Position numbers and translations under genes: made by a program. From Myxococcus fulvus (GTDB lineage Bacteria > Myxococcota > Myxococcia > Myxococcales > Myxococcaceae), in assembly GCF_900111765.1 (NCBI RefSeq), contig NZ_FOIB01000001.1:1736001-1800000 (forward strand): DNA of 64,000 bases, in the 5' to 3' direction. Below, in pieces: positions 47,934-59,741 of the stretch. The notes below the pieces were generated by a model that was not told the origin of the DNA, did not search any database, and was given only the letters and a program-made list of their open reading frames with translations. Within the stretch, counting starts at the first letter, position 1. Each line of letters begins with the position of its first letter.

Positions 47934-48247
47934 GGACAGCCCCCCGGGGCAGTTCGCCGCATGCGGCGCGAGGCGCGCGATAGCAGAGGACTTCCACACA
48001 GGGCAACCCGAGGCCCTCGACACGTTCACCGGTGGATGCGCATCGCGCTCGCGGGGCGATGAGGACTCGCTCCGTCACACGTATCGAGAAGTGAGGTTTT
48101 GGCGTCGAGGGAGTCCTTTCCGACTTCATGAGACGGTCATGTTTCATCGGGGCTTTCATTCGAGCGACCACACCCTTAGTGCGCGTGCCTGGAGCCAGGG
48201 TCGAGGTTCATCGACGTGCTCCGCATGTGACTTCAACGGGAGACTTC
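47934..48247. other. Divergent intergenic region, no clear element
   Basis: 314 bases between the deacetylase and CARDB genes. It is lower in GC around 48080-48180 and must hold both promoters, but I see no convincing -35/-10 pair, operator or hairpin. AGACTT before the CARDB ATG gives only a weak ribosome-binding site. Confidence 0.5.
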
Positions 48248-51200
48248 ATGAAGAGGCCGGAGTGGAGCGTGACCGCCACGAGTTGGCTGGTCATGGGTTT
48301 GTTCATCGGTGTGGGCACGGGCTGTTCGGGAGGCGAAGGGGCCTCGCGGGAGCCCGGGGTCGAAGCGGCATCCAGTCCGCTCCAGACGGGGCCGGACCTC
48401 GTCATCCGCGAGCTGCGGGTCCCCGCGAGCGTGCGTCGGGGTCAGGACTTCAACGCCACGGTGACGGTGTGCAACCAGGGCAGCGTGCCGGTCAGCGGCG
48501 TGCGGACCCGGCTCTTCATGTCCGTGGATGACGTGCTGACTCCCAGCGGCCCCCAGGCTCCACCGCCGGACCAGCTGCCCGTGGGGGACTTCTCCCTGTC
48601 GCAGACGCTCACGCCAGGCGCCTGTGTGTCGCGCGAGGTCTCGCTGTCCTCCTCGCTGCCTCCGTTGGCCCAGCAGGACGGCGCCTACTACGTGGGTGCC
48701 ATCGTGGACGACCCGTCCTCCATCCAGGAGCTGCGGGAGGACAACAACAGCGCGGTCCAGCGCATCGGCGTGGGCAATCTCCCGGACCTGGTCATCACGG
48801 AGCTTCGCGCGCCCGTCAGCGTGATGGCGCAGCAGATGTTCGAGGTCCAGGCCCGCGTGTGCAACCAGGGCACGACGGCCTCCGCCAGCACGCGGGTGAG
48901 CTTCCTCCTCTCCGTGGACGATGTGCTGACGCCTTCGGGGCCCGGCGCGCCTCCGCAGGACCAGGTCGTGGTGGGCTCGCTGCAGCTCCCCTGGTTGGAG
49001 CCGGGGCAGTGCCTTGCTCGCTTCTCGCAGGTCGGCTCGTGGCTGCCGCCGTCGGGAAATGGCCAGGGGCGGTATGTCCTGGGCGCCATCGTGGACGACC
49101 CGGCCTCCGTGCAGGAGCTGCGTGAGGACAACAACACCCACGCGAGCACCGTCATCGGCGTGGGCAGTCGCGCGGACCTGGTGGTCCGTGAGCTGTCGTC
49201 TCCCGCGAGCTTCACGCCCGGGCAGTCCACTCCCGTCCGCGTGACGGTGTGCAACCAGGGCACGCAGTCCAGTGGCTGGGCGCGGTTCGGGTTGTACCTG
49301 TCGCTCGATGACGTGCTGACGCCGATGACGCCTCCCGGGCCTGCGCCGGTGGAGCAGGTGCAGGTGGGCATGGGCTCGTTCCCGTCGCTCGCGCCCGGTC
49401 AGTGCCTCACGCGCGAGGAGAATGTCTGGCCCACGTTCCCGCCCGCGCCCACGGAGGCCACCGCGCTCTACCTGGGCGCCATCGTGGATGACGCGAGCGA
49501 GGTGCTGGAGCTGCGCGAGGACAACAACGCCTTCGTGAAGGGCCTGGTCGGTCTGGGGCATCGTCCGGACCTCGTCGTCACGGACGTGCAGGTGCCGCCC
49601 TCGCTGTCCCAGAGCCAGTCCTTCCAGGCGACGGTGACGGTGTGCAACCAGGGCACGCAGTCCAGCAACCCGGTGCGCGCGCAGCTCTACCTCTCCACGA
49701 CGCCGACGCTGTCGCCCATGCCGTCGGGCCCCGCGCCCCTGCCGCCGAACCAGTCGCCGGTGGGCGAGGTCCAGGTGTCCTCGCTGGTGCCAGGACAGTG
49801 CGCGACGCGCTCTCTGACGGGCTGGCCCATGGTGCCGCCGGGTGCGACGGGCCCGGGCCCCTTCTACGTGGGCGCCGCGGTGGATGACGTGAACCAGGTG
49901 CTGGAGCTGCGCGAGGACAACAACACCTTCGTGAAGGGGCTGGTCGGCGTGGGCAACGGGCCGGACCTGGTCATCACCGCGATGACCGCGCCGCCGAGCC
50001 TCGCCTCGGGTCAGCCGTTCCAGGCGACGGTGACGGTGTGCAACCAGGGCACCCAGCCGAGCAACCCCGCTCGCGCGCAGGTCTACCTGTCGATGGACAC
50101 GACCCTGACGCGGATGACGCCGTGGCCCGGCCCGTCGATGCCGCTGGACCAGACGCCGCAGGGTGAAATCTCCGTGCCCTCGCTGAGCCCGGGCGCGTGC
50201 CTGGTGCGCGAAGGGGCGATGCCGGGCGCCGTCATCCCGCCGGATGGAACGGGTGATGGGGCGTACTACCTGGGCGCCATCGTGGACGACCCTGCCTCCG
50301 TGCAGGAGCTGCGCGAGGACAACAACGCCTTCATCCTGGGACGGGTGGGCGTGGGCCTCATGCCGGACCTGGTCGTCACGGCGCTGGGCTCGCCCGAGAG
50401 CCTGCCGACCTCGGGGCCCACCACCGTGACGGTGACGATGTGCAACCAGGGCACCCGCCCCAGCAACTCGACGCAGGCGCAGCTCTTCGTGTCCTCGGAC
50501 GCGGTGCTCTCGCCCATGTCGTCGAGCCCTGGCCCCGCGCCCATGGACCAGGTCCCGGTGGGCTCCGTCTCCGTGCCTTCGCTCGGCGCGGGCCAGTGCA
50601 CCACGCGCTCCATCCAGGTGTGGGCCTCCATTCCTCCGGACTCGCAAGGGGATGGCGTGTTCTTCCTGGGCGCCATCGTGGATGAGCCGGCGTCCGTGCA
50701 GGAGCTGCGCGAGGACAACAACAGCTTCGTGAAGCGCGTGGGCGTCGGTCAGCGCCCGGACCTGGTCATCACCGCGATGACCGCGCCCCGGAGCGTGGGG
50801 GTGAGCCTGCCGCTCGCCTTGTCCGTGAATGTCTGCAACCGGGGCACCCTGTCGAGCCCGCCGTCCACTGCGCGCGTCTATCTGTCGACGGATGCCGTGC
50901 TGACGACCACCCTGCCGTCCGCGCCTCCCGCCCTGGACCAGGTGATGCTCGGGAGCGTGGATGTCCCGGCGCTCGCCATCGGGCAGTGCCTCTCCCGCTC
51001 GCTCACGCCGAACGCCTGGCTGCCGCCGGAAGCGCAGGGCGACGGTGCCTACTACCTGGGCGCCATCGTCGACGAGACGAACTCCGTGCAGGAGCTGCGT
51101 GAGGACAACAACGTCTTCATCCACGGACTCCTCGGCGTGGGCAGCCGCTCCGACCTGGTCGTCACCGCGATGACCGCGCCGGCCAGCGCGCAGAATGGCC

Positions 51201-51934
51201 AGTCCCTGTCTGTCACCGTGACGGTCTGCAACCACGGGACGATGCCCAGCCCCACGTCGAGCGTCCGCCTCCTGCTGTCGGTCGATGACCAGCTCTCCGC
51301 GTCGCCGCTGCCCTCGGAGGAGCAGCAGCCGCTCGGCAACGTGGACGTGCCCGCCCTGGCGGTGAACCAGTGCCTGCAGCGCAGCGCCACCGTGTCGGCG
51401 ACCGTGCCGCCGGGCCTGCAGGGCTGGGTCTTCCACCTGGGGGCCATCGTCGACGCCGCGTCGCAGGTGCAGGAGCTGCGCGAGGACAACAACACCTTCG
51501 TCCACGGGCTCATCGGTATCGGCGCCAGGCCGGACCTCGTCGTGTCCTCGCTGACGGGGCCGGTGTCGGCCATCTCCGGCAGCCGCATCTCCGCGACGGT
51601 GCGGGTGTGCAACCAGGGGACGACGGCGAGCGCCTCGAGCACGGTGACGTTCGTGGTCTCGTTGGACACGAGCCTCGCCCCGGAGGCGCCCGTGCTCCCG
51701 GGGGGCGCGCCGCCGCTGGACCAGGTGCCCATGGGAGGCGCGAACATCCCCAGCCTGGCCCCGGGAGCCTGCATCACGCAGTCGGTGCCCAACCTGCAGG
51801 TGAGCCTGCCCCCGGATGCGCAGGGCGCGCCCGGTGCCCGGTTCCTCGGCGCCTACGTGGACTCGTTCCTGGCGCAGCAGGAGCTGCGCGAGGACAACAA
51901 CACGCGCACCACCCCGCTGACGGTGACGAACTAG
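48248..51934 (+). CDS. Giant CARDB-repeat lipoprotein (nine repeats)
   Basis: 1228 residues with a signal and lipobox GVGTGC, then nine tandem CARDB/APHP-type Ig-like domains of about 130 residues each. Every unit begins PDLVI/SDLVV, carries TVTVCNQGT in the middle and ends GAIVDD...QELREDNN. The CARDB fold is an extracellular adhesion-like module. Cys residues at fixed places in each unit (VCNQG and the later QC) suggest one disulfide per domain. The long rod anchored by lipid points to a surface adhesin or scaffold; partner unknown. Monocistronic, ended by an 11-bp hairpin. Confidence 0.92.
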   Translation: MKRPEWSVTATSWLVMGLFIGVGTGCSGGEGASREPGVEAASSPLQTGPDLVIRELRVPASVRRGQDFNATVTVCNQGSVPVSGVRTRLFMSVDDVLTPSGPQAPPPDQLPVGDFSLSQTLTPGACVSREVSLSSSLPPLAQQDGAYYVGAIVDDPSSIQELREDNNSAVQRIGVGNLPDLVITELRAPVSVMAQQMFEVQARVCNQGTTASASTRVSFLLSVDDVLTPSGPGAPPQDQVVVGSLQLPWLEPGQCLARFSQVGSWLPPSGNGQGRYVLGAIVDDPASVQELREDNNTHASTVIGVGSRADLVVRELSSPASFTPGQSTPVRVTVCNQGTQSSGWARFGLYLSLDDVLTPMTPPGPAPVEQVQVGMGSFPSLAPGQCLTREENVWPTFPPAPTEATALYLGAIVDDASEVLELREDNNAFVKGLVGLGHRPDLVVTDVQVPPSLSQSQSFQATVTVCNQGTQSSNPVRAQLYLSTTPTLSPMPSGPAPLPPNQSPVGEVQVSSLVPGQCATRSLTGWPMVPPGATGPGPFYVGAAVDDVNQVLELREDNNTFVKGLVGVGNGPDLVITAMTAPPSLASGQPFQATVTVCNQGTQPSNPARAQVYLSMDTTLTRMTPWPGPSMPLDQTPQGEISVPSLSPGACLVREGAMPGAVIPPDGTGDGAYYLGAIVDDPASVQELREDNNAFILGRVGVGLMPDLVVTALGSPESLPTSGPTTVTVTMCNQGTRPSNSTQAQLFVSSDAVLSPMSSSPGPAPMDQVPVGSVSVPSLGAGQCTTRSIQVWASIPPDSQGDGVFFLGAIVDEPASVQELREDNNSFVKRVGVGQRPDLVITAMTAPRSVGVSLPLALSVNVCNRGTLSSPPSTARVYLSTDAVLTTTLPSAPPALDQVMLGSVDVPALAIGQCLSRSLTPNAWLPPEAQGDGAYYLGAIVDETNSVQELREDNNVFIHGLLGVGSRSDLVVTAMTAPASAQNGQSLSVTVTVCNHGTMPSPTSSVRLLLSVDDQLSASPLPSEEQQPLGNVDVPALAVNQCLQRSATVSATVPPGLQGWVFHLGAIVDAASQVQELREDNNTFVHGLIGIGARPDLVVSSLTGPVSAISGSRISATVRVCNQGTTASASSTVTFVVSLDTSLAPEAPVLPGGAPPLDQVPMGGANIPSLAPGACITQSVPNLQVSLPPDAQGAPGARFLGAYVDSFLAQQELREDNNTRTTPLTVTN

Positions 51935-51982: not shown

Positions 51983-54802
51983 TCAGCTCCCCAGCGGAGG
52001 CTCGGTGGGCGCGCGTGAAATCCACGCGGCGATGAACACGTCCAGCTCGCCTCGCAGCACGTCCTTCACGCGCGGCGTGCCGGCGCCGGTGCGAGGGTCC
52101 TCCACCCGGGCGCTGCGTCCCAGGTAGTAGCGGCGCGCCTCATCCGTGCTGCCGCCCTGGCCCGCCACCACGCGCGCGGCGATGTCCTTGAGCTCCTCCA
52201 GCTCGCCCGCGCCGGTGAGCGTGAGCACGCGCCCGGTGGACTCGTCCTTCACCGTCACCTCGGTGCGCACGCGCTGGAGGTAGGCGCCCTCGTGGCTCTT
52301 CACCGGGCGGCCCAGCACCTCCAGGAGCTCCAGCTCCTCCTCGGAGAGCGCACCGCCCCGGTGCACGCGGACGTACGCGCGCTGGCGCTTCTCGTCCTCC
52401 AGGCGTCGGTGCATGCCCGCCTCTCCCGCGAGGAACCCGTACGCACCCGGGCCGGCGATGCGCACCACGACGCGCGAGGGCTCGTCCGCCTCGGCCACCG
52501 CCACCGCCTCGTAGCCCCGGCGCTGCGCCCACCCCAGGTACATGGTGGCCAGCTCCTGCACCCACACGGCCTGCGTCTCCGCCGAGTCGCTCGCGCAGAT
52601 GTCCACCAGCGCCTCGGTGTCCTGCTGCGAGGCGCCCGAGGCATGGAGCGCTTCGGCCATCTGCATCTCGCGCGCGACCTCTTCCACCTGCCGCGCCGCG
52701 GAGCCCAGCTGCACCTCGTTCTTCGCCTCGCGCACCAGCCGGCGGGCGAACAGGCACGCCGCCTCCAGCCGCTCCATCTCGTTGAGGTGGGCCTCCACCA
52801 GGCGGAAGGCGCGGATGACGTCCGCCGCGTGCGTGGGGTCGTCCCAGAGGTTGGGGGCCTGCGTCTCCGTGAGCAGGGCCGTCCTGCGCTCCTCCAGCTC
52901 CGGCCGTCCGGAGGACGCCGCCAGCGCGCGCGCCTTGCCCACCAGCCGGTCCATCTCCACCAGCAGCGACTTGCGGTCCAAGCGCCGCTTCACCGGGGCC
53001 GCGCGCGCGGAGGGCAGGAGCAGCTGCGCGGTGGGCGACGGCGGCGGAGCGGCGGGCTCGGCCACGGCCACCACCCGGTCCCCCGCGCGTGCCTCCACGC
53101 GCACCGGCGTGCCCGGAGGCAGCGGCTTGCGAGCAATCTCCACCGCGAGGGCCGCGGTGAGCGTCTTCTCGATTTCACGCTGCAGGTAGCGCGCGCCGAA
53201 CTGCGGCGAGTACCCGCGCTCGACGAGGATGTCGACCACCTCGGGCGTCACCTCCACGTCCAGCGAGCGCGCGCGGATGCCCTCGCGCTCCAGCACGCGG
53301 CCTACCTCGCGCTGGGCAATCTTGCGGATGTCCACCTTGGACAGCGGCTGGAAGTGACAGATGGCGTCGAAGCGGTTGAGGAACTCCGGGCGGAAGGACT
53401 CGCCGATGCGCCGGTCCACCTCCGTCACCATCTCCTCCGCGCGCCGCGTGCCCGCGAAGCCCATGGCGGGCTCCCGGTACACCTCCGCGCCCACGTTGGA
53501 CGTGGCGACGATGAGCGTGTTGTTGCACGACACCACCTCGCCCGCGCCGTTGACGAACGTGCCCTCGTCGAAGAGCTGGAGGTAGCGGTCATGCACGCTG
53601 CGCGCGGCCTTCTCGAACTCGTCCAGCAGCAGCACGGAGAACACCTTGCCGTCGAGCAGCGCCGTCAGCTCGCCGCGCCGGGTCTCCAGCGCCGGCGCCC
53701 AGGACGCGCCGAAGGGCACGCTCTCGTCGCCGTCGTTCGGGTAGTCCGCCATGTTCAGGCGCACCAGTCTGTCCGCCGAGCCGAAGAGGTACTCGGCCAG
53801 GAGCTTCGCGAGCTGCGTCTTGCCCACGCCCGTGGGGCCCGCGAACAGGAACACGCCCAGCGGCCGGCGGGGGTCGTTCAACCCCGCCTTGAGCAGCGCC
53901 ACCGAGCGCAGCACCGCCGCCACCGCGTCCGTCTGTCCCAGGAGCCGCTCGCCGAAGAAGCGCTCGGTTTCCTCCAGGTCCAGTGGCATCGCGTCGTCCA
54001 CCACGAAGCGCGGCAGGCGCGTGGCGGCGCAGAATCGGGTGAGCACGTCCTCGGGACCCACGTGGTCCTTGGCCGCGCCCGCGGCCTCCGCCGCCGTCTC
54101 CTTGAGCAGCTCGATGGCCTTGCGCGGCATGCGCTGCGCGAGCAGGAACTTGGACGACAGCCGCAGCGCGAGGTCACACGCCGCCGGGTCGATGGGCAGC
54201 CGCAGCTCACGCTCGAGCTCCTCCGCCACCCGTCCCAACACCCAGCGCGCCTTCTCCAGCGGAGGCTCGTGCAGGGGCAGCAGGTGGAGCCGCTCGGCGA
54301 GCGCCTCGTCGGAGCGCAGGAGCTCCTGGACGCGCTTGGGCTCGGTCTCGAAGATGAACCGCATGCCGCTGGTGCGCAGCGCCCGCACGGCGACGGGCGC
54401 CAGGGGGCCTCCCAGCGCCACGGGCAGGTCACGGATGTAGACGATGGGACAGGCCTGCCGGGCGAGGCGGGCCAGCAGCTCCTCGAAGCTCTCCGCCGCC
54501 TGTCGCTGGGTGGAGCGCGCGAGGATGTTGGCGATGGACACCTCCACCAGCCGGGCCTGCGCCAGCTCCGCGTCCACGCGGCCCTCGGCGATGCGCCGGG
54601 CCACCTCCTGCACGAGCGCGCTCTTGCCCACGCCGGGGTCGCCGGCCAGCAGGGGGTGCTTGCCACCGCGCGTCAGCAACCCGAGGACCTCCGTCACCGC
54701 GGCGTCCACGCCATGGGCGGCCGGCAGCCGGCCCTCGCGGGCCAACGCGGTCAGGTCCCGGTCGATGAGTCGCTCCTGGTCCTCGCTCTTCCTCGTCGCC
54801 AT
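51983..54802 (-). CDS. ClpA-type double AAA+ ATPase fused to a degenerate release-factor-2 module
   Basis: 939 residues in three parts. (1) Residues 20-260: an AAA+ ring domain with Walker A GDPGVGKSA (54-62) whose Walker B is degenerate (CPIVYIRDLPV, 118-128, no D-E pair). (2) Residues 280-575: a complete Clp/Hsp100 second domain with GPTGVGKT (322-329), LLLDEFEKA (391-399), sensor-1 ATSN, Arg finger FRPEFLNRFD and sensor-2 FGARYLQ. (3) Residues 605-930: an RF2-like module with NLWDDPTHA (651-659), MYLGWAQRRG, GPGAYGFLAGEAGMHR (784-799) and the RF2 C-terminal RTGAGTPRVKDVLRGELD (904-921). GGQ and SPF are absent. No ClpP-loop I can recognise. Monocistronic. A ribosome-linked unfoldase is inference. 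Confidence 0.9.
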   Translation of the reverse strand: MATRKSEDQERLIDRDLTALAREGRLPAAHGVDAAVTEVLGLLTRGGKHPLLAGDPGVGKSALVQEVARRIAEGRVDAELAQARLVEVSIANILARSTQRQAAESFEELLARLARQACPIVYIRDLPVALGGPLAPVAVRALRTSGMRFIFETEPKRVQELLRSDEALAERLHLLPLHEPPLEKARWVLGRVAEELERELRLPIDPAACDLALRLSSKFLLAQRMPRKAIELLKETAAEAAGAAKDHVGPEDVLTRFCAATRLPRFVVDDAMPLDLEETERFFGERLLGQTDAVAAVLRSVALLKAGLNDPRRPLGVFLFAGPTGVGKTQLAKLLAEYLFGSADRLVRLNMADYPNDGDESVPFGASWAPALETRRGELTALLDGKVFSVLLLDEFEKAARSVHDRYLQLFDEGTFVNGAGEVVSCNNTLIVATSNVGAEVYREPAMGFAGTRRAEEMVTEVDRRIGESFRPEFLNRFDAICHFQPLSKVDIRKIAQREVGRVLEREGIRARSLDVEVTPEVVDILVERGYSPQFGARYLQREIEKTLTAALAVEIARKPLPPGTPVRVEARAGDRVVAVAEPAAPPPSPTAQLLLPSARAAPVKRRLDRKSLLVEMDRLVGKARALAASSGRPELEERRTALLTETQAPNLWDDPTHAADVIRAFRLVEAHLNEMERLEAACLFARRLVREAKNEVQLGSAARQVEEVAREMQMAEALHASGASQQDTEALVDICASDSAETQAVWVQELATMYLGWAQRRGYEAVAVAEADEPSRVVVRIAGPGAYGFLAGEAGMHRRLEDEKRQRAYVRVHRGGALSEEELELLEVLGRPVKSHEGAYLQRVRTEVTVKDESTGRVLTLTGAGELEELKDIAARVVAGQGGSTDEARRYYLGRSARVEDPRTGAGTPRVKDVLRGELDVFIAAWISRAPTEPPLGS

Positions 54803-55531: not shown

Positions 55532-55626
55532 GTGTGTACTTCCTTTCCTCGCGCCGACGGTGCCGGCTGGGAAGGAGGCTAAGGATGAGGGGGCTCGGGG
55601 CGGGACTGTCCTGGAGGATGGCGCAG

Positions 55627-55714
55627 CGGAAGTCGGAGGACTCGAACCCCAAGCCGGAAGGCCGGCTCGCACCCGGTAGCAGCGGGGCCTGGCGCCATCG
55701 CCAGTCCAACTTCC
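55627..55714 (-). tRNA. tRNA-Ser(GCT)
   Basis: Acceptor GGAAGTT/GACTTCC, anticodon loop CTGCTAC, 7-bp variable arm and T-loop TTCGAGT; discriminator G73 as expected for Ser. No encoded CCA. Position 8 is G, not T, and the D arm is a tight hairpin (TGGCG-ATGG-CGCCA) instead of an 8-11-base loop. Confidence 0.85.
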
Positions 55715-55726
55715 AAGGAGACAGAT

Positions 55727-55811
55727 CGGAGCAGGGTGGAGTCGAACCACGAGCCCCGAAGGGCCCTCCCGATTTCCAGCCGGGCGGCCGGCCACCCGGC
55801 CTGCATGCTCC
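55727..55811 (-). tRNA. tRNA-Ser(GGA)
   Basis: Acceptor GGAGCAT/CTGCTCC (last pair mismatched), anticodon loop CTGGAAA, long variable arm closed by TTCG, T-loop TTCGACT, G73. The D arm reduces to GGCC-GGGT-GGCC. No CCA. Confidence 0.82.
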
Positions 55812-55820
55812 AAGACACAG

Positions 55821-55906
55821 CGGAAGACAGGGGACTCGAACCCCGAGCGCGTCATGCACCCGCACCGTTTTCGAAACGGGCCGCCAGCCTCTGGCGTCGG
55901 TCTTCC
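55821..55906 (-). tRNA. tRNA-Ser(CGA)
   Basis: Perfect acceptor GGAAGAC/GTCTTCC, anticodon loop TTCGAAA, class II variable arm, T-loop TTCGAGT, G73. The D arm is GCCAG-AGG-CTGGC: a 5-bp stem with only three loop bases and no G18G19 pair. No CCA. Confidence 0.83.
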
Positions 55907-55968
55907 AGGAAGATGTGCCGGCAGCGGTGCTCCCGCCTGCCGGCGCGCGGGGAGCATTCCTCCGGGCG

Positions 55969-55993
55969 GGAGGTCCACCTCTGGCGGACCTCC
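55969..55993 (-). terminator. Hairpin, distal copy
   Basis: GGAGGTCC and GGACCTCC, 8-bp stem with 9-base loop. It shares the 16-base block CCTCTGGCGGACCTCC with the hairpin at 56030. Both lie between the HNH gene and the tRNA-Ser trio. Confidence 0.6.
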
Positions 55994-56029
55994 TCATCCC
56001 CCGTCACCCGTGTGGGCGGGGACGAAGGG

Positions 56030-56060
56030 GAAGGAGGCCCGCCTCTGGCGGACCTCCTTC
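56030..56060 (-). terminator. Terminator of the HNH gene
   Basis: A 14-bp stem with one G-T pair and a 3-base loop (plus-strand GAAGGAGGCCCGCC / GGCGGACCTCCTTC), 12 bases beyond the HNH stop, followed on the minus strand by CCCCTTCG. Together with the second hairpin it probably uncouples the Ser tRNAs from the HNH transcript. Confidence 0.7.
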
Positions 56061-56072
56061 ACTCGGGGGAGC

Positions 56073-56615
56073 TCAGGACTCCAGCTCGCCATGCCAGTAC
56101 GCCACGTCCCTGAGGAACTTGGCCCACGACATGGGCATGCCCTTGTCGAAGACGAACGACAGGTGCAGGGTGTCCGGCAGCTTCTTGGGCTTCACCGGGG
56201 CGCAGCGCAGCGCCATCTTCGCGTGCTCCGGCGTCCGGTTGCCCTTCTTCTGGTTGCAGGGCACGCATGCGATGACGACGTTGTCCCAGGTGGTGCGGCC
56301 ACCCTGCGCCCGGGGCACCACGTGGTCATACGTGGCCTCCGCGCGAGACACCTTCAGGCCGCAGTACTGGCAGCGGCAGTGGTCTCGCACGTAGACGTTC
56401 TCCCGGCTGAACTTCACGCCCTTGGGGCCCTTGCGCAGGCCGCGGAAGAACCGGATGACGGACGGCATGCGAATCTCCACCGTCACCGAGCGCACGAAGC
56501 GGTCCTCGTACTCCTCGACCACCTCGACCTTGCCCTGGAAGATGAGCATGACGGCGCGCTGCCAGGGAATCCGCGCGACGGGCTCGAAGGACTGACTGAG
56601 AACCAGCGTCTCCAT
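56073..56615 (-). CDS. HNH endonuclease embedded in the tRNA array
   Basis: 180 residues. The N-terminal beta part (LVLSQSFEPVARIPWQRAVM) is typical of small bacterial HNH proteins. The zinc/catalytic core has two CxxC pairs, CRCQYCG and CVPCNQKKGNRTP, flanking the HNH block ATYDHVVPRAQGGRTTWDNVV. Nearly identical architecture is widespread in myxobacteria and phages. It lies 20 bases downstream of tRNA-Leu-like(CAA) and 166 bases upstream of the Ser trio on the same strand, so it is probably transcribed with tRNAs. It could be a homing-type or restriction nuclease; target unknown. Confidence 0.88.
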   Translation of the reverse strand: METLVLSQSFEPVARIPWQRAVMLIFQGKVEVVEEYEDRFVRSVTVEIRMPSVIRFFRGLRKGPKGVKFSRENVYVRDHCRCQYCGLKVSRAEATYDHVVPRAQGGRTTWDNVVIACVPCNQKKGNRTPEHAKMALRCAPVKPKKLPDTLHLSFVFDKGMPMSWAKFLRDVAYWHGELES

Positions 56616-56635
56616 GACGCAACGCCTTTCGTTTG

Positions 56636-56709
56636 TATCCGCGGCGAGAGTCGAACTCGCACTGGGCCGGGTTTGAGCCGGCGGCCTCTCCCGTTTGGGC
56701 TACGCGGAC
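56636..56709 (-). tRNA. tRNA with anticodon CAA (Leu) but class I body
   Basis: Acceptor GTCCGCG/CGCGGAT, anticodon arm GCCGG-CTCAAAC-CCGGC, T arm GCGAG-TTCGACT-CTCGC, A73. Anticodon CAA reads the Leu codon TTG, yet the variable loop is only five bases (CCAGT), whereas bacterial tRNA-Leu is class II. Charging identity is uncertain. No CCA. Confidence 0.78.
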
Positions 56710-56757
56710 GGACTTCGGGAGCTCCTGCTGACCTGCGACTGCACACGACGACGACAG

Positions 56758-56831
56758 TGCCGGCGGCGGGAGTCGAACCCGCAACCTCCAGGTTCTCGAC
56801 CTGGCACCTCTACCTATTGGGCTACACCGGC
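56758..56831 (-). tRNA. tRNA with anticodon GAG (Leu) but class I body and C33
   Basis: Acceptor GCCGGTG/CGCCGGC, anticodon arm CCAGG-TCGAGAA-CCTGG, T arm GCGGG-TTCGACT-CCCGC, A73. The 5-bp stem puts C at position 33, normally an invariant T, and gives anticodon GAG. Variable loop AGGTT is short, unlike real tRNA-Leu. No CCA. Confidence 0.72.
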
Positions 56832-56849
56832 AAGACTTCGAGGACACAG

Positions 56850-56922
56850 TGCACGCCCCGGGAATCGAACCCGGCGGGAACGGTGTGTGGGACCGTCGCC
56901 GTCTCCAGCTGGCTCGGCGTGC
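56850..56922 (-). tRNA. tRNA-Val-like (CAC) with C33
   Basis: Perfect acceptor GCACGCC/GGCGTGC, anticodon arm ACGGT-CCCACAC-ACCGT, T arm CCGGG-TTCGATT-CCCGG, A73. Position 33 is C again. The anticodon in the normal frame is CAC. No CCA. Confidence 0.75.
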
Positions 56923-56932
56923 GTAAGACGAG

Positions 56933-57003
56933 TTGCGGAGCAGGGAGTCGAACCCTGGAGGCCGGGCTTATGAGGCCCAGTGGGGCACCGACCCCACACC
57001 GCA
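56933..57003 (-). tRNA. tRNA with anticodon CAT (Met or Ile2)
   Basis: 71 bases. Acceptor TGCGGTG/CTCCGCA with one T-T mismatch, anticodon loop CTCATAA, T arm CAGGG-TTCGACT-CCCTG, A73. The D arm is GGGG-TCGGTG-CCCC with a six-base loop. Elongator Met or lysidine-Ile cannot be separated by eye. The three G-C pairs of initiator tRNA are not present in the anticodon stem. Confidence 0.75.
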
Positions 57004-57025
57004 GAAAGAGGTGAAAACCACGTGA

Positions 57026-57100
57026 AGCCCCCGGCAGGATTCGAACCTGCGACCTTGCGCTTAGGACGCGCGTGCTCTGGTTCCGCTGAGCTACGGGAGC
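57026..57100 (-). tRNA. tRNA-Arg(CCT)
   Basis: Canonical body: acceptor GCTCCCG/CGGGGGC, TAGCTC D arm, anticodon loop GTCCTAA, T arm GCAGG-TTCGAAT-CCTGC. The discriminator position is T, which is unusual. No CCA. Confidence 0.88.
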
Positions 57101-57114
57101 GAGAGGAGAGACAG

Positions 57115-57188
57115 TGCCCCTGGCAGGGATTGAACCTGCGGCCTCACGGTTCGGAACCGTGCGCTCTCATCCACTGAGCTACAAGGGC
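57115..57188 (-). tRNA. tRNA-Arg(CCG)
   Basis: Acceptor GCCCTTG/CAGGGGC, TAGCTC D arm, anticodon arm CACGG-TTCCGAA-CCGTG, T-loop TTCAATC, A73. Standard fold. No CCA. Confidence 0.9.
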
Positions 57189-57194
57189 AAGAAG

Positions 57195-57265
57195 TGGAAC
57201 CGCCGGGACTCGAACCCGGACCGCTCGGGTGCAAACCGAGTGCTCTCCCATTGAGCTACGGACCC
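57195..57265 (-). tRNA. tRNA-Ala(TGC)
   Basis: Anticodon arm CTCGG-TTTGCAC-CCGAG, TAGCTC D arm, T-loop TTCGAGT, A73. Acceptor GGGTCCG/CGGTTCC has a T-T mismatch and lacks the G3-T70 pair in the standard alanine context only partly (a G3-T70 is present). The only T34 anticodon of the array. No CCA. Confidence 0.82.
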
Positions 57266-57285
57266 ATGCTGACTGCATGAAACAG

Positions 57286-57359
57286 TGCCCCCGGTCGGGT
57301 TCGAACCGACAACCGCCGGTTTACGAAACCGGTGCTGCTACCAGTTGAGCTACAGGGGC
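57286..57359 (-). tRNA. tRNA-Thr(CGT)
   Basis: Acceptor GCCCCTG/CGGGGGC, TAGCTC D arm, anticodon arm CCGGT-TTCGTAA-ACCGG, T-loop TTCGAAC, A73. Standard fold. No CCA. Confidence 0.9.
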
Positions 57360-57368
57360 GAAACGAAA

Positions 57369-57436
57369 CAGGCCGCCGAGGAGTTGAACCCCGCCCGCTC
57401 GGATTTGGAGTCCAAGCTGCTCCCGGAGCGCGGCCT
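57369..57436 (-). tRNA. tRNA-Trp(CCA) with minimal D arm
   Basis: 68 bases. Perfect acceptor AGGCCGC/GCGGCCT and G73 as in Trp tRNAs; anticodon loop CTCCAAA; T-loop TTCAACT. The D arm is GCTC-CGG-GAGC, four pairs with a three-base loop, so the normal D-loop/T-loop contacts cannot form. No CCA. Confidence 0.8.
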
Positions 57437-57460
57437 ATGAAGGTGAAGCAGTGCTGCGAG

Positions 57461-57533
57461 TGCCGACCCTCGGAATCGAACCGAGTCCTCCCGCTCTTCA
57501 GACGGGCGCGCGGACCACCTACGCCAGGTCGGC
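57461..57533 (-). tRNA. tRNA-Phe(GAA)
   Basis: Perfect acceptor GCCGACC/GGTCGGC, anticodon arm CCCGT-CTGAAGA-GCGGG, T arm with TTCGATT, A73, near-normal D arm (GCG-TAGGTGGTC-CGC). No CCA. Confidence 0.85.
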
Positions 57534-57733
57534 AGATGTGAAGCTCCCCGAATGAAGCTCTGTGCGAACTCGTTCTCTGTTTTTCTCGAGAGAACTCGAA
57601 CTCTCTGAGCGGTAGAAAGGCGAGTGATATTCAGGGGTTTGAGACTGGGGCTTGCGGTTGTCCTTCAATCGGGGCCCGATGGGGGCCGCGAACTTCGGCA
57701 GGGAGCTGGCCCTCAGAAGAGGGGCATGGAGAG

Positions 57734-57806
57734 AACCGGAGGCAGGCTTTGCACCTGCACCTGCGGAGTCAGAGTCCGCCATCCTTGCTGGTTAGACGAC
57801 CCCGGT
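57734..57806 (-). tRNA. tRNA-Gln(CTG)
   Basis: Acceptor ACCGGGG/CTCCGGT, D region TCGTCTAACC as in Gln tRNAs, anticodon arm GCGGA-CTCTGAC-TCCGC. The T-loop reads TGCAAAG, so T54-T55-C56 has become T-G-C. 201 bases separate it from tRNA-Phe; that gap holds only a GTTCTC/GAGAAC inverted repeat near 57573. No CCA. Confidence 0.75.
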
Positions 57807-57811
57807 ATGAG

Positions 57812-57882
57812 TACCTCCGGAGGGATTCGAACCCTCGCCGTCCGCTTAAGAGGCGGATGCTCTTCCAATGAGCTACGGAGGC
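57812..57882 (-). tRNA. tRNA-Lys(CTT), left copy
   Basis: Acceptor GCCTCCG/CGGAGGT, TAGCTC D arm, anticodon arm TCCGC-CTCTTAA-GCGGA, T-loop TTCGAAT, A73. Differs by about one base from the inverted copy at 59540-59610. No CCA. Confidence 0.92.
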
Positions 57883-57969
57883 AGATTGCTTGCCGCCCCG
57901 GATGCTGGCGGGCGGCATGACATTCACCACGACGATTCAGTTGTCAGAGAGCTTGATGCTGTCGGGTGC

Positions 57970-58062
57970 GGGGCTCGAGCCTGGACTTCTCACGTGCGAC
58001 CGCGTGCCCTGTCGGGCTCGGGCGCTACAGGCCCGCGCGTTTTCCCGGGCGCTCGATGTTTC
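57970..58062 (-). pseudogene. Decayed tRNA-Tyr(GTA)
   Basis: The anticodon arm and variable arm of tRNA-Tyr remain (58009-58039; minus strand CGCGCGGGCCTGTAGC followed by GCCCGAGCCCGACAGGG). The acceptor strand and the T arm no longer match those of the intact copy at 59168-59253. No acceptor stem can be formed. Confidence 0.7.
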
Positions 58063-58089
58063 GGAAGGAGAGGGGGCCAGAAAGCCGAG

Positions 58090-58124
58090 AGGCCGGGTCC
58101 CCTGGATGGGAGCCCGGCCTCTGC
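58090..58124 (-). terminator. Hairpin after the left small ORF
   Basis: AGAGGCCGGG and CCCGGCCTCT form 10 bp, with an inner TCCC/GGGA, 34 bases beyond the peptide stop. The same hairpin follows the right peptide gene. Confidence 0.7.
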
Positions 58125-58157
58125 GTGGCTTGGCGCGCCAGTGAAGGAGCGCGAGCG

Positions 58158-58316
58158 TCAGCAGGGGACGGGCGGATGGGCGCCAAGCCGGTCGAATCCC
58201 ACGAGGGACTTCGAGGCGACGCTCACAAGGGAGCCGGAGGCGGCGTTGAACTGGGTCCAGAGGCTGTTGCGAGTGCTGCGCTTCATCGGGTTCGTCCGCA
58301 TCGTCAACGTCATCAT
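58158..58316 (-). CDS. 52-residue peptide ending HPPVPC (left copy)
   Basis: Starts with two ATGs behind AAAGGAG. The product (MMTLTMRTNPMKRSTRNSLW...GAHPPVPC) aligns without gaps to the right-arm peptide: 30 of 52 residues identical, including LWTQ, AAS, the GF pair and HPPVPC. A basic N-terminal half is followed by a Ser/Ala-rich half and a terminal Cys. No family recognised. The equal length and shared ribosome-binding site argue for a real small gene. No modifying enzyme or transporter is adjacent. Confidence 0.6.
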   Translation of the reverse strand: MMTLTMRTNPMKRSTRNSLWTQFNAASGSLVSVASKSLVGFDRLGAHPPVPC

Positions 58317-58639
58317 GGTCGCCGCTCCTTTCAGGGAGACTCTACGGCGGGTGATTTTCGTTCCTGACACGGCCCGATTATTTTGAGCTTCACGGCCGTG
58401 GCTCATGTGCCAGTGGTGGGCGGTGGCCCCTGTGCAAAGGATGCCGCCCCATGGTGGGTCGGACTCACCGAGCACCCCAGCTCGCGGCTGACCATGACGG
58501 CCAGCTCCGCGAGGGTTGCGTCCGGCTGTGCATCCACGACGAAGATTGCCTTGGAGGAAGCCTCCCTCCACCCGCGGATGTCTCCCGAGTGCTCGGCGAC
58601 GAGGTGGCCCTTGCCCAGCTCTCCGACGGAGGGGGCGTC

Positions 58640-58852
58640 ACGACCGACGATGACCAGCCGATTCTGCACCGCCTCGGCGACTTCGAGGAGGCCTGCCTGC
58701 GCAGCATGGACGAGGCGGGCATCGCCCATGCATTCCTGCCCCTGACTGCGCCGGGCATCCAGCGCATCGTCGACCCGAGAAAGGCCGCCACGCAGGCCCG
58801 GCTCGAGAACGACTTCCTGGCGGAGCGGATCGCGGCGCATCCCGAAAAGAAA
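58640..58852 (+). pseudogene. Amidohydrolase (ACMSD/decarboxylase type) N-terminal fragment
   Basis: In one frame the product reads DFEEACLRSMDEAGIAHAFL then LTAPGIQRIVDP and LENDFLAERIAAHPEK. This is the pattern of the second strand-helix unit of amidohydrolase-2 decarboxylases, where MDxAGI..., LTAPGVQ... and ANDxLAEAVxxHPDR occur. It breaks off at HPEK, where the right arm of the inverted repeat begins, and the metal-binding HxH start and the remaining 200 residues are absent. It occupies the centre (58387-58855) between the arms. Confidence 0.6.
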
Positions 58853-58914
58853 CCGCCGTCGTGTCAGGGACGAGGAGCTCCCGCCGTAGATTCCCCCTGA
58901 AAGGAGCGGTGACC

Positions 58915-59073
58915 ATGACGACGGTGATGAAGCGGACGAGCCCGACGAAGTTCAGCTATCGCAGCCACCTCTGGACACAGCTCGACGCCGCCTCCCTTTC
59001 GCATGTGAGCGCCGCCTCGATTTCCAATATCGGTTTCGGCCTCCTCCACGGCCATCCGCCCGTACCCTGCTGA
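58915..59073 (+). CDS. 52-residue peptide ending HPPVPC (right copy)
   Basis: ATG preceded by GAAAGGAG with 8-base spacing. Product MTTVMKRTSPTKFSYRSHLW...LLHGHPPVPC, 52 residues. It shares length, reading frame and C-terminus with the left copy, while the DNA differs at about three bases in ten. Substitutions fall in all codon positions, but HPPVPC and WTQxxAAS stay fixed. Followed after 35 bases by a strong hairpin. Unknown function; a secreted or modified peptide is only a guess. Confidence 0.6.
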   Translation: MTTVMKRTSPTKFSYRSHLWTQLDAASLSHVSAASISNIGFGLLHGHPPVPC

Positions 59074-59108
59074 CGCTCGCGCTCCGGATTCCAAGCGCCA
59101 AGCCATGC

Positions 59109-59143
59109 AGAGGCCGGGCTCCCATCCAGGGGACCCGGCCTCT
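59109..59143 (+). terminator. Hairpin after the right small ORF
   Basis: AGAGGCCGGG / CCCGGCCTCT, 10-bp stem, followed by CGGCTTTC. It is upstream of tRNA-Tyr, so the tRNAs need their own promoter or read-through. Confidence 0.7.
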
Positions 59144-59167
59144 CGGCTTTCAGGGCCCCCCTCTCCC

Positions 59168-59253
59168 GGGGACGTAGAGCGTTAGGGGAGACGCGCGGGC
59201 CTGTAGAGCCCGAGCCCGACAGGGCCCGCTGGGTTCAACTCCCAGCGTCCCCA
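59168..59253 (+). tRNA. tRNA-Tyr(GTA)
   Basis: Perfect acceptor GGGGACG/CGTCCCC, anticodon arm CGGGC-CTGTAGA-GCCCG, class II variable arm, T-loop TTCAACT, A73. No CCA. Intact partner of the decayed copy at 57970-58062. Confidence 0.9.
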
Positions 59254-59307
59254 TGCAACACCCGCGTGGCCGCTGGCCGCGCACCGCAATCCCAGACGTC
59301 TGCTTCA

Positions 59308-59378
59308 CGGGGTATGGCTCTAAGGAAGAGTGCTCGTCTGATAAGCGAGCGGTCCCGGTTCGATTCCGGGTACCCCGA
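59308..59378 (+). tRNA. tRNA-Ile(GAT)
   Basis: Acceptor CGGGGTA/TACCCCG, anticodon arm CTCGT-CTGATAA-GCGAG, T arm CCCGG-TTCGATT-CCGGG, A73. Small D-loop (TAAGGAA). No CCA. The genome's main tRNA-Ile(GAT) would normally lie in rRNA operons, so this is an additional gene. Confidence 0.85.
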
Positions 59379-59384
59379 CATCAT

Positions 59385-59456
59385 GTTGGCCGAAGGCGAA
59401 TGGTGAGCCACCGGGATGTGACCCCGGCGAAGAGGGTTCGATTCCCTCCGGTCAAC
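59385..59456 (+). tRNA. tRNA-His(GTG) with encoded G-1
   Basis: G-1 then TTGGCCG/CGGTCAA and C73: the extra G-1:C73 pair needed by HisRS is present. Anticodon arm CCGGG-ATGTGAC-CCCGG, T arm GAGGG-TTCGATT-CCCTC. No CCA. Confidence 0.88.
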
Positions 59457-59539
59457 CTGGAGAGTCCGCAGGTCTCCGACAACTGAATCATCGGCGTGAA
59501 TGACAGCCGCCCGCCAGCATGCGGGGCGGCAAGCCATCT

Positions 59540-59610
59540 GCCTCCGTAGCTCATTGGAAGAGCATCCGCCTCTTAAGCGGACGGCGAGGATTCGAATCCC
59601 TCCGGAGGTA
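59540..59610 (+). tRNA. tRNA-Lys(CTT), right copy
   Basis: Same gene as the left copy in opposite orientation: acceptor GCCTCCG/CGGAGGT, anticodon loop CTCTTAA, A73. No CCA. Confidence 0.92.
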
Positions 59611-59633
59611 CTCGCAAGGTAAACGCAGCACAT

Positions 59634-59705
59634 TTCCCGGTAGCTCAATGGCGGAGCAGGCGGCTGTTAACCGCAAGGATGAGGGTTCGAGTCCCTCCTG
59701 GGAAG
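59634..59705 (+). tRNA. tRNA-Asn(GTT)
   Basis: Acceptor TTCCCGG/CTGGGAA, TAGCTC D arm, anticodon loop CTGTTAA, T-loop TTCGAGT, G73 as in Asn. No CCA. Its anticodon arm contains CTGTTAACCG, which recurs at 59954-59963. Confidence 0.9.
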
Positions 59706-59741
59706 CTGATTGAAAGCGCCTGCAAACCGGCAGTGCCCTTT

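Follow-up and report, generated by a model that had tools for sequence, protein, structure and literature searches.

A conserved myxobacterial gene joining a Clp-type ATPase to a catalytically dead module derived from release factor 2

Bacterial release factor 2 (RF2) docks on the ribosome, and its alpha5 tip, GGT[DE], helps to read the first base of the stop codon. We describe here a gene of Myxococcus fulvus in which a module derived from this factor is joined to a Clp-type ATPase. The gene, referred to as Clp-RF2, lies within a 64,000-nucleotide stretch of the genome (assembly GCF_900111765.1, contig NZ_FOIB01000001.1, positions 1,736,001 to 1,800,000), which we call the window and to which the coordinates below refer unless stated otherwise. 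PrfB3 binds and protects the petB mRNA (PMC5897788), and catalytically inactive Dom34 splits stalled ribosomes (PMC6514570). Section 2.4 of a 2019 survey treats the bacterial release factors RF1, RF2, ArfB and prfH and describes the catalytic glutamine as retained in ArfB and prfH; an RF2 paralogue lacking this residue is not among the factors in that section, and the word "Clp" does not occur in the survey's main text (PMC6514570). With regard to the ATPase, the LGF loop has been described as distinguishing ClpC from ClpB (PMC10149685), and eight less conserved clpA/B/C copies have been counted in Myxococcus xanthus (PMC11423568), among which the Clp-RF2 gene may be included. Among the matches listed in a search of open-licence PMC papers, no title or abstract described a Clp-RF2 fusion.

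The Clp-RF2 gene (51983..54802, minus strand) is a single open frame of 939 codons that runs from an ATG at 54802 to a stop codon at 51983-51985, and it is in frame in relatives. A sequence-only reading of the window had proposed that one frame joins two AAA+ domains to a module with RF2 landmarks. The open frame, Pfam and NCBIfam agreed with this proposal, and the landmarks that it quoted were all found, in RF2 order. Pfam assigned AAA to residues 51-125 in the first ring domain (D1), AAA_2 to residues 313-481 (8.9e-34) and ClpB_D2-small to residues 487-569 in the second (D2), and PCRF to residues 637-799 (7.2e-15; 55.7 bits versus a cut-off of 24). The NCBIfam prfB model matched at 2.1e-22, yet with 79.7 bits versus a full-member cut-off of 370. 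The ClpA (274.8 versus 993 bits) and ClpB (285.8 versus 1232 bits) models also matched below their cut-offs, in a result table that contained no ClpC model.

The nearest relatives of the ATPase half in the Protein Data Bank (PDB) were ClpC chains (5.2e-74). Alignment with ClpC placed D1 at approximately residues 13-265 (54008..54766) and, given that residue 13 pairs with ClpC residue 166, the N-terminal substrate/adaptor domain is absent. D2 together with ClpB_D2-small spans approximately residues 266-572 (53087..54007; best PDB relatives, ClpC and ClpB). A Pro/Ala-rich linker that varies in the family alignment (residues 573-604; 52991..53086) leads to the module, which comprises an RF2-like helical domain 1 containing NLWDD (approximately residues 605-722; 52637..52990), a domain 2 core containing MYLGWAQRRG and GPGAYGFLAGEAGMHR (residues 730-800; 52403..52615), a shortened domain 3, and a C-terminal segment, EARRYYLGRSARVEDPRTG...FIAAWISR (residues 888-930; 52013..52141). 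All of these features are encoded on the minus strand.

The module is derived from RF2 over its whole length. Comparison by hhalign of a profile of 56 family modules with one of 17 Myxococcota RF2 proteins (one of 18 was omitted for length) gave Prob 99.5 and an E value of 4e-23 over 305 columns, from domain 1 through the C-terminus. The Prob for RF1 was only 8.9, and an origin from RF1 was rejected on this basis. With phmmer, the C-terminal 340 residues retrieved RF2 chains from the PDB, beginning at 3.5e-14, and a second stretch near the C-terminus matched the RTG region of Escherichia coli RF2, so that homology covers the whole factor by both profile and sequence comparison. All six further family members scanned with Pfam scored above the PCRF cut-off, and none of the six matched PF00472 at 1e-3.

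To this we can add the predicted fold. A Foldseek search of the PDB with an AlphaFold model of the module, which was built from 24 closely related sequences and is of moderate quality, returned release factors or, by title, termination or release-factor complexes in its top 46 rows, the best RF2 being 1gqe (2.4e-9) and rank 47 an unrelated oxygenase. The lack of a release-factor fold in the C-terminal part, which the sequence-only reading had named as a reason to give up its proposal, is thus not what the fold search showed. The pLDDT of the model was 77-91 in ten blocks between residues 11 and 110 and mostly below 50 in the last third. On structural superposition, 114 residues of domain 1 matched RF2 at 2.2 Å with a Z score of 13.5, a value to be read in light of the fact that unrelated helical bundles can reach Z scores of about 13 with this tool. 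For domain 2, 83 residues matched RF1 at 2.8 Å (Z 9.6), a weak match on its own because unrelated ferredoxin-like folds gave Z scores of 7.5-8.4. Global TM-scores by query length were low across the top 46 rows (0.18-0.37), which we attribute to the uncertain arrangement of the domains.

The sequence-only reading had also stated that the module has lost GGQ and SPF, and alignment of the affected loops upheld this statement. Neither motif is present in the module of the window protein. SPF was found in none of the 56 distinct family sequences, and the string GGQ in a single one (L067; this and similar codes are our own labels for loci and genomes), where the alignment places it in the linker ahead of the module. 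According to the profile and merged alignments, the former SPF stop-codon loop (residues 801-813; 52364..52402) is shortened and now reads LEDEKRQRAYVRV, with LEDEKRQRAYV (801-811) pairing with the RF2 loop. EGAYLQRV (838-845; 52268..52291) pairs with the GGQ hairpin inside the shortened domain 3. The alpha5 tip is likewise lost: the genome's own RF2 reads AGAGGTDSMDW and the module ASDSAETQAVW, with GGTD replaced by SAET. This loss and an invariant loop in D2, described below, are newly noted here. The module has kept MY, G..G.L..E.G.HR, the D.RTG segment and V..G.L..FI, and its C-terminal segment, with invariant columns, is among its best-conserved parts in the family alignment. The module is thus dead as a release factor, and the PDB, profile, fold and genome searches together bear out the description of a conserved fusion of such a module to an Hsp100/Clp-type ATPase. 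Three PCRF genes were found in eight of 58 sampled Myxococcota genomes, the third being the Clp-RF2 fusion in all eight and the other two being taken as RF1 and RF2. A separate RF2 with SPF and GGQ is present in three of these eight carriers (G000, G050 and G056). Given that carriers keep separate release factors, the fusion adds a function.

We searched 195 Myxococcota genomes with a profile of the Clp-RF2 family, 96 of them belonging to the same taxonomic family as the window and 99 to others. The gene was found in 83 of the 96, with seven of these copies being incomplete, and in one of the 99 (G105), so that the fusion recurs in Myxococcota. Whole copies that were measured are 59-99% identical (two partial copies, 56 and 57%; a short piece in G140, 49%), and a strain of M. 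xanthus (L015) carries the gene at 92% identity. In eight pairwise comparisons, NG86 dN/dS was 0.10-0.58 for the module, 0.06-0.42 for D1 and 0.04-0.31 for D2, values that are rough for distant pairs as a result of synonymous saturation. These ratios show the module to be under purifying selection.

One further genome of the window's family, G098, holds a remnant. At G098:C77 (L075:9691-10884) a 397-amino acid open frame that contains the module, at 45% identity, lies between xerC-like and hslV-hslU-like genes, named by eye. Inspection by eye placed a fusion-like N-terminus (MARKRS..ERDLTELARAG), the linker and the module in three frames, and neither AAA+ domain was present. We therefore took this locus for a remnant that has undergone internal deletion and frameshifting, and we rejected it as a standalone module gene. 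An exact short-peptide scan of contigs with a single sequence, by which near relatives alone are detectable, gave 26 loci, all with myxobacterial names except one labelled Comamonas. The latter record (BNCN01000002.1, titled Comamonas sp. KCTC 72670; L016) contains the fusion at 92% identity and is probably a mislabelled Myxococcus-type genome. A search of viral contigs gave no relative. An origin from mobile elements was also rejected: the matches listed (20 of 31 for plasmids and 20 of 26 for phages, not inspected for a Clp portion) were 20-30% identical and mostly confined to the PCRF part, and the four with an annotation under the match were RF2.

The ATPase half combines an intact ring with a degenerate one. 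In all 56 distinct family sequences, D2 has the Walker A Lys (GPTGVGKT, residues 322-329; 53816..53839), the Asp and Glu of Walker B (VLLLDE, residues 390-395; 53618..53635), the sensor-1 Asn, the arginine finger (R477 in FRPEFLNRFD; 53372..53374) and the sensor-2 Arg. D1 has retained the Walker A Lys in all 56 (GDPGVGKS, residues 54-61; 54620..54643), and its Walker B DE pair has become RD in 55 sequences and PD in one (VYIRD, residues 121-125; 54428..54442), the Asp being present throughout. We compared the pore motifs with those of four reference Clps of the same genome, of which L005 scored above the NCBIfam cut-off for ClpA, L008 above that for ClpB, and L006 and L007 below all cut-offs shown. 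The tyrosine of the D2 pore motif GYVG, present in all four references, is gone from the Clp-RF2 family (pore-1 loop FGASWAP, residues 364-370; 53693..53713), in which an invariant Trp368 (56/56) precedes the tyrosine position by two residues. The D1 pore motif K[YF]RG, which three references share and L006 lacks (QLRG), is gone as well. The earlier description of this half as an Hsp100-type ATPase holds, whereas the notion that it threads proteins needs revision in view of the lost D1 Walker B pair and pore motif and the lost D2 tyrosine.

D2 also contains a [MILV]GF loop of the ClpP-docking type (residues 447-449; 53456..53464) that is invariant across the 56 sequences. Its Gly and Phe are present in all of them, and its first residue is Met in 24, Leu in 19, Ile in 12 and Val in one, the Met departing from the usual LIV of [LIV]G[FL]. 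The genome's own ClpB (L008) has no GF loop, and the Clp-RF2 family thus falls outside ClpB as defined by the lack of this loop. The same genome gave two strong matches and one weak third match for ClpP.

The closest relatives of the ATPase half within the genome are encoded by three consecutive Clp-like genes, A, B and C (G000:C6, ~590700-599900, minus strand; L085:3727-12862; open frames of 829, 1133 and 1140 amino acids, the last of these being A), adjoining a Ser/Thr kinase-like gene. Gene A, the first by transcription and the one with the 1140-amino acid frame, ends in approximately 300 far-diverged residues, for whose family profile hhalign gave Prob 96.8 for RF2, 22.3 for RF1 and 96.4 for the window module. 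The C-terminus of gene B (five of six B sequences were used) gave 0.0 for RF2 and 5.0 for the window module, no support for a third RF2 fusion; given that it matched neither profile, it served as a control for A. A single A sequence retrieved nothing from the PDB by phmmer and two A members scanned yielded no PCRF match at 1e-3, so the RF2 likeness of A comes from the profile comparison. Of 146 Myxococcota genomes, 34 contain the A module at E values up to 1e-3, the weakest match (4e-5) lying in a 245-amino acid frame. Alignment of the three proteins showed a D2 pore loop shortened by a deletion of five to six residues together with a GF loop, and gene C ends soon after a D2 whose motifs are kept. 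A tree of D1-D2 sequences placed the window family together with A, B and C, apart from the four reference Clps, at a local support of 1.000, which, with four references and long branches, suggests a single origin of the Clp-RF2 joining. The cluster is possibly a multi-ATPase system.

These features lead us to a tentative proposal. A ClpC/ClpA-derived AAA+ ATPase, presumably a hexamer without an N-terminal substrate domain, would have acquired an RF2-derived module. D2 would be the ring that consumes ATP, and D1 a scaffold that binds nucleotide and hydrolyzes it poorly. The module would have kept the body of RF2 (helical domain 1, the domain 2/4 core and a remnant of domain 3) and shed the parts that deal with the stop codon and peptidyl-tRNA. 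It might reach the ribosome in the manner of RF2, through the GTPase-associated centre and the A site, with D2 then pulling on or disassembling a bound client, which might be passed to ClpP by way of the conserved [MILV]GF loop. Our analysis establishes the anatomy of the protein, its RF2 ancestry, the motifs lost, the intact D2 motifs, the degeneracy of D1 and the conservation of the gene; we infer the hexamer, the ATPase activity, ribosome docking, the client and the ClpP partnership from such comparisons. Given that RF2 docks on the ribosome, that Dom34 acts there without catalysis and that Vms1 works with an AAA+ motor, targeting to ribosomes in a particular state, probably damaged or stalled, is our leading reading, one to which we would assign somewhat less than an even chance. 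A more ambitious version regards the protein as a one-polypeptide counterpart of Vms1-Cdc48, in which a dead RF2 sits in a vacant A site or GTPase centre while the ring, bearing ClpP on its other face, would extract and destroy a stuck chain or ribosomal proteins. On this view the protein would stand beside the three-ATPase cluster in a broader myxobacterial clade of Clp-RF2 machines with altered pores, as one of its branches; taken as a whole, this version seems unlikely to us.

A number of observations weigh against ribosome targeting. The SPF loop and the alpha5 GGT[DE] tip, both elements of the decoding side, are lost, the stretch ahead of the C-terminal RTG segment falls well short of its length in RF2, and docking is a property that we infer from sequence. 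The module evolved faster than D1 and D2 in all eight comparisons. Its model had a mean pLDDT of only 61.7, with values below 50 across most of residues 225-340, and a full-length model was discarded because its pLDDT was 47.7. The canonical pore tyrosine is absent from both rings, and pulling by threading is therefore uncertain. In known Clp hexamers, the C-terminus of D2 is the ClpP-facing end, opposite to the side of substrate entry, and it is to this end that the module is attached; the variable linker of approximately 30 residues might let the module reach round the ring, yet it does not put the module at the entry side. Of the two ClpP proteins of M. xanthus, ClpP2 was without peptidase activity in vitro (PMC11423568). 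The gene is absent from 12 of the 96 genomes of the window's family, and the group can therefore live without it. A comparison of loci based on a crude gene finder, which missed the fusion itself in L068, yielded no conserved neighbour pointing to translation. An HNH-like gene was near the fusion in 16 of 36 loci compared and in none of those with approximately 60% identity. A tRNA cluster, which in the window had seemed a meaningful context, was absent beside the fusion in 14 of 25 loci scanned, including all seven with approximately 60% identity, and the cluster is therefore taken as incidental.

The state of the pore is central to an alternative in which the protein is a ClpP-independent remodeller that alters or dismantles complexes without threading. 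The pore-1 tyrosine is missing from both rings of the Clp-RF2 family, and the proteins of genes A, B and C carry their deletion of five to six residues at the same D2 loop. On the other hand, the [MILV]GF loop is invariant, and Trp368 could replace the tyrosine. We would assign such a remodeller, too, somewhat less than an even chance. It is compatible with the targeting of ribosomes and disputes only the ClpP step.

The fate of the release-factor elements bears on a second alternative, that the module has left the ribosome and now serves as an adaptor, binding RNA or protein, which chooses some other Clp client, by a route similar to that of PrfB3. The module has lost all three of the elements for stop-codon reading and hydrolysis and also diverges faster than the ATPase, and the module of the second fusion is so altered that profile comparison alone detects RF2 (no PCRF match at 1e-3 in two members). 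PrfB3 has likewise lost SPF and GGQ (PMC5897788), a point that counts both for an adaptor and against ribosome targeting. Much of the RF2 body, with domain 1 and the core of domain 2, is nevertheless retained, although plain RNA binding would not obviously require it. An adaptor of this kind is, in our judgment, only a little less likely than ribosome targeting.

That the module is instead an internal structural or regulatory part, which aids ring assembly or gates D2 and binds nothing translational, seems improbable. The absence of the Clp N-domain would leave room for another part to supply regulation or assembly, and D1 is degenerate. Release factors, which are the detected relatives of the module, would however be an unexpected origin for a structural part; the linker varies and has the look of a flexible one; and gene C, which has no module, keeps its D2 motifs, so that a module seems dispensable for such a ring.

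The notion that the fusion is an artefact of assembly or sequencing can be dismissed as next to impossible: the frame breaks at the linker in G181, at residue ~46 in G090 and between residues 92 and 133 in G172 would be in keeping with it, but in 82 of the 195 Myxococcota genomes the frame runs unbroken across the junction of ATPase and module, with whole copies down to 59% identity, and this conservation, far beyond what chance would give, rules it out. Among relatives, only G181 is split at the junction, with ATPase and module in two overlapping frames and a single shift at residue ~601, exactly in the linker; two separate genes, which the sequence-only reading had named as grounds for abandoning the fusion, are thus not the general state. 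G090 has its frameshift at residue ~46, and residues 1-92 and 133-937 of the G172 copy are in different frames. The frame breaks in these three otherwise open copies (L185, L186 and L193 for G181, G090 and G172, respectively) would be either sequencing errors or recent lesions. The copies in G089 and G140 span two contigs, that of G089 being split at the linker, and those in G131, G166 and G177 start at contig ends. One internal stop each was reported for G067, G109, G177, G190 and G191, but direct alignment revealed none up to residue ~932-934.

The window contains 19 tRNA genes at 55626-59706. Fourteen of them, upstream of the fusion gene, are encoded by the minus strand and five by the plus strand. 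An HNH-endonuclease-like gene (56073-56615), read by eye, lies among them. On the other side, 48128-51934 on the plus strand encodes a lipoprotein-like repeat protein of 1268 amino acids (PDLVIT...ELREDNN repeats, by eye), convergent with the fusion gene.

If the module docks on ribosomes, the gene would provide a genetically tractable tether between a motor and the ribosome in a model bacterium, M. xanthus, and would show how recognition of the ribosome can be linked to the unfolding of proteins in bacteria when no tmRNA tag is involved. Should the module not dock, the fusion would be a clear example of the conversion of a translation factor into a Clp adaptor.

With regard to known systems, the module resembles RF2 (prfB) in the order of its landmarks, in its whole-length profile match and in the predicted fold of domains 1 and 2. 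It differs in the loss of GGQ, SPF and the alpha5 GGT[DE] tip, in its shortened domain 3 and in its tether to a Clp ATPase, and carriers have two other PCRF genes. The ATPase half is similar to ClpC and ClpA in its D1-D2 order, ClpB_D2-small, intact D2 motifs, [MILV]GF loop and best PDB match (ClpC), whereas it lacks the N-domain, the D1 Walker B and pore motif and the D2 pore tyrosine and has an RF2-derived C-terminus. ClpI of Actinomycetota likewise branched off within the ClpC/ClpB family and has features specific to its lineage, but it carries an M-domain and traits linked to unfoldase activity, and the paper describing it does not use the term "release factor" (PMC10149685). PrfB3 of plant chloroplasts is likewise a paralogue of RF2, lacks SPF and GGQ and has been kept for another function, but it binds the petB 3' untranslated region, and the available parts of its description mention no ATPase (PMC5897788). 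Vms1-Cdc48 of eukaryotic ribosome quality control likewise pairs a release-factor relative with an AAA+ ATPase (PMC6514570). Vms1, however, is a member of the archaeo-eukaryotic release-factor superfamily, which is unrelated, and contacts Cdc48 through a motif (PMC6514570), whereas the protein described here links a module derived from bacterial RF2 covalently to a Clp ATPase.

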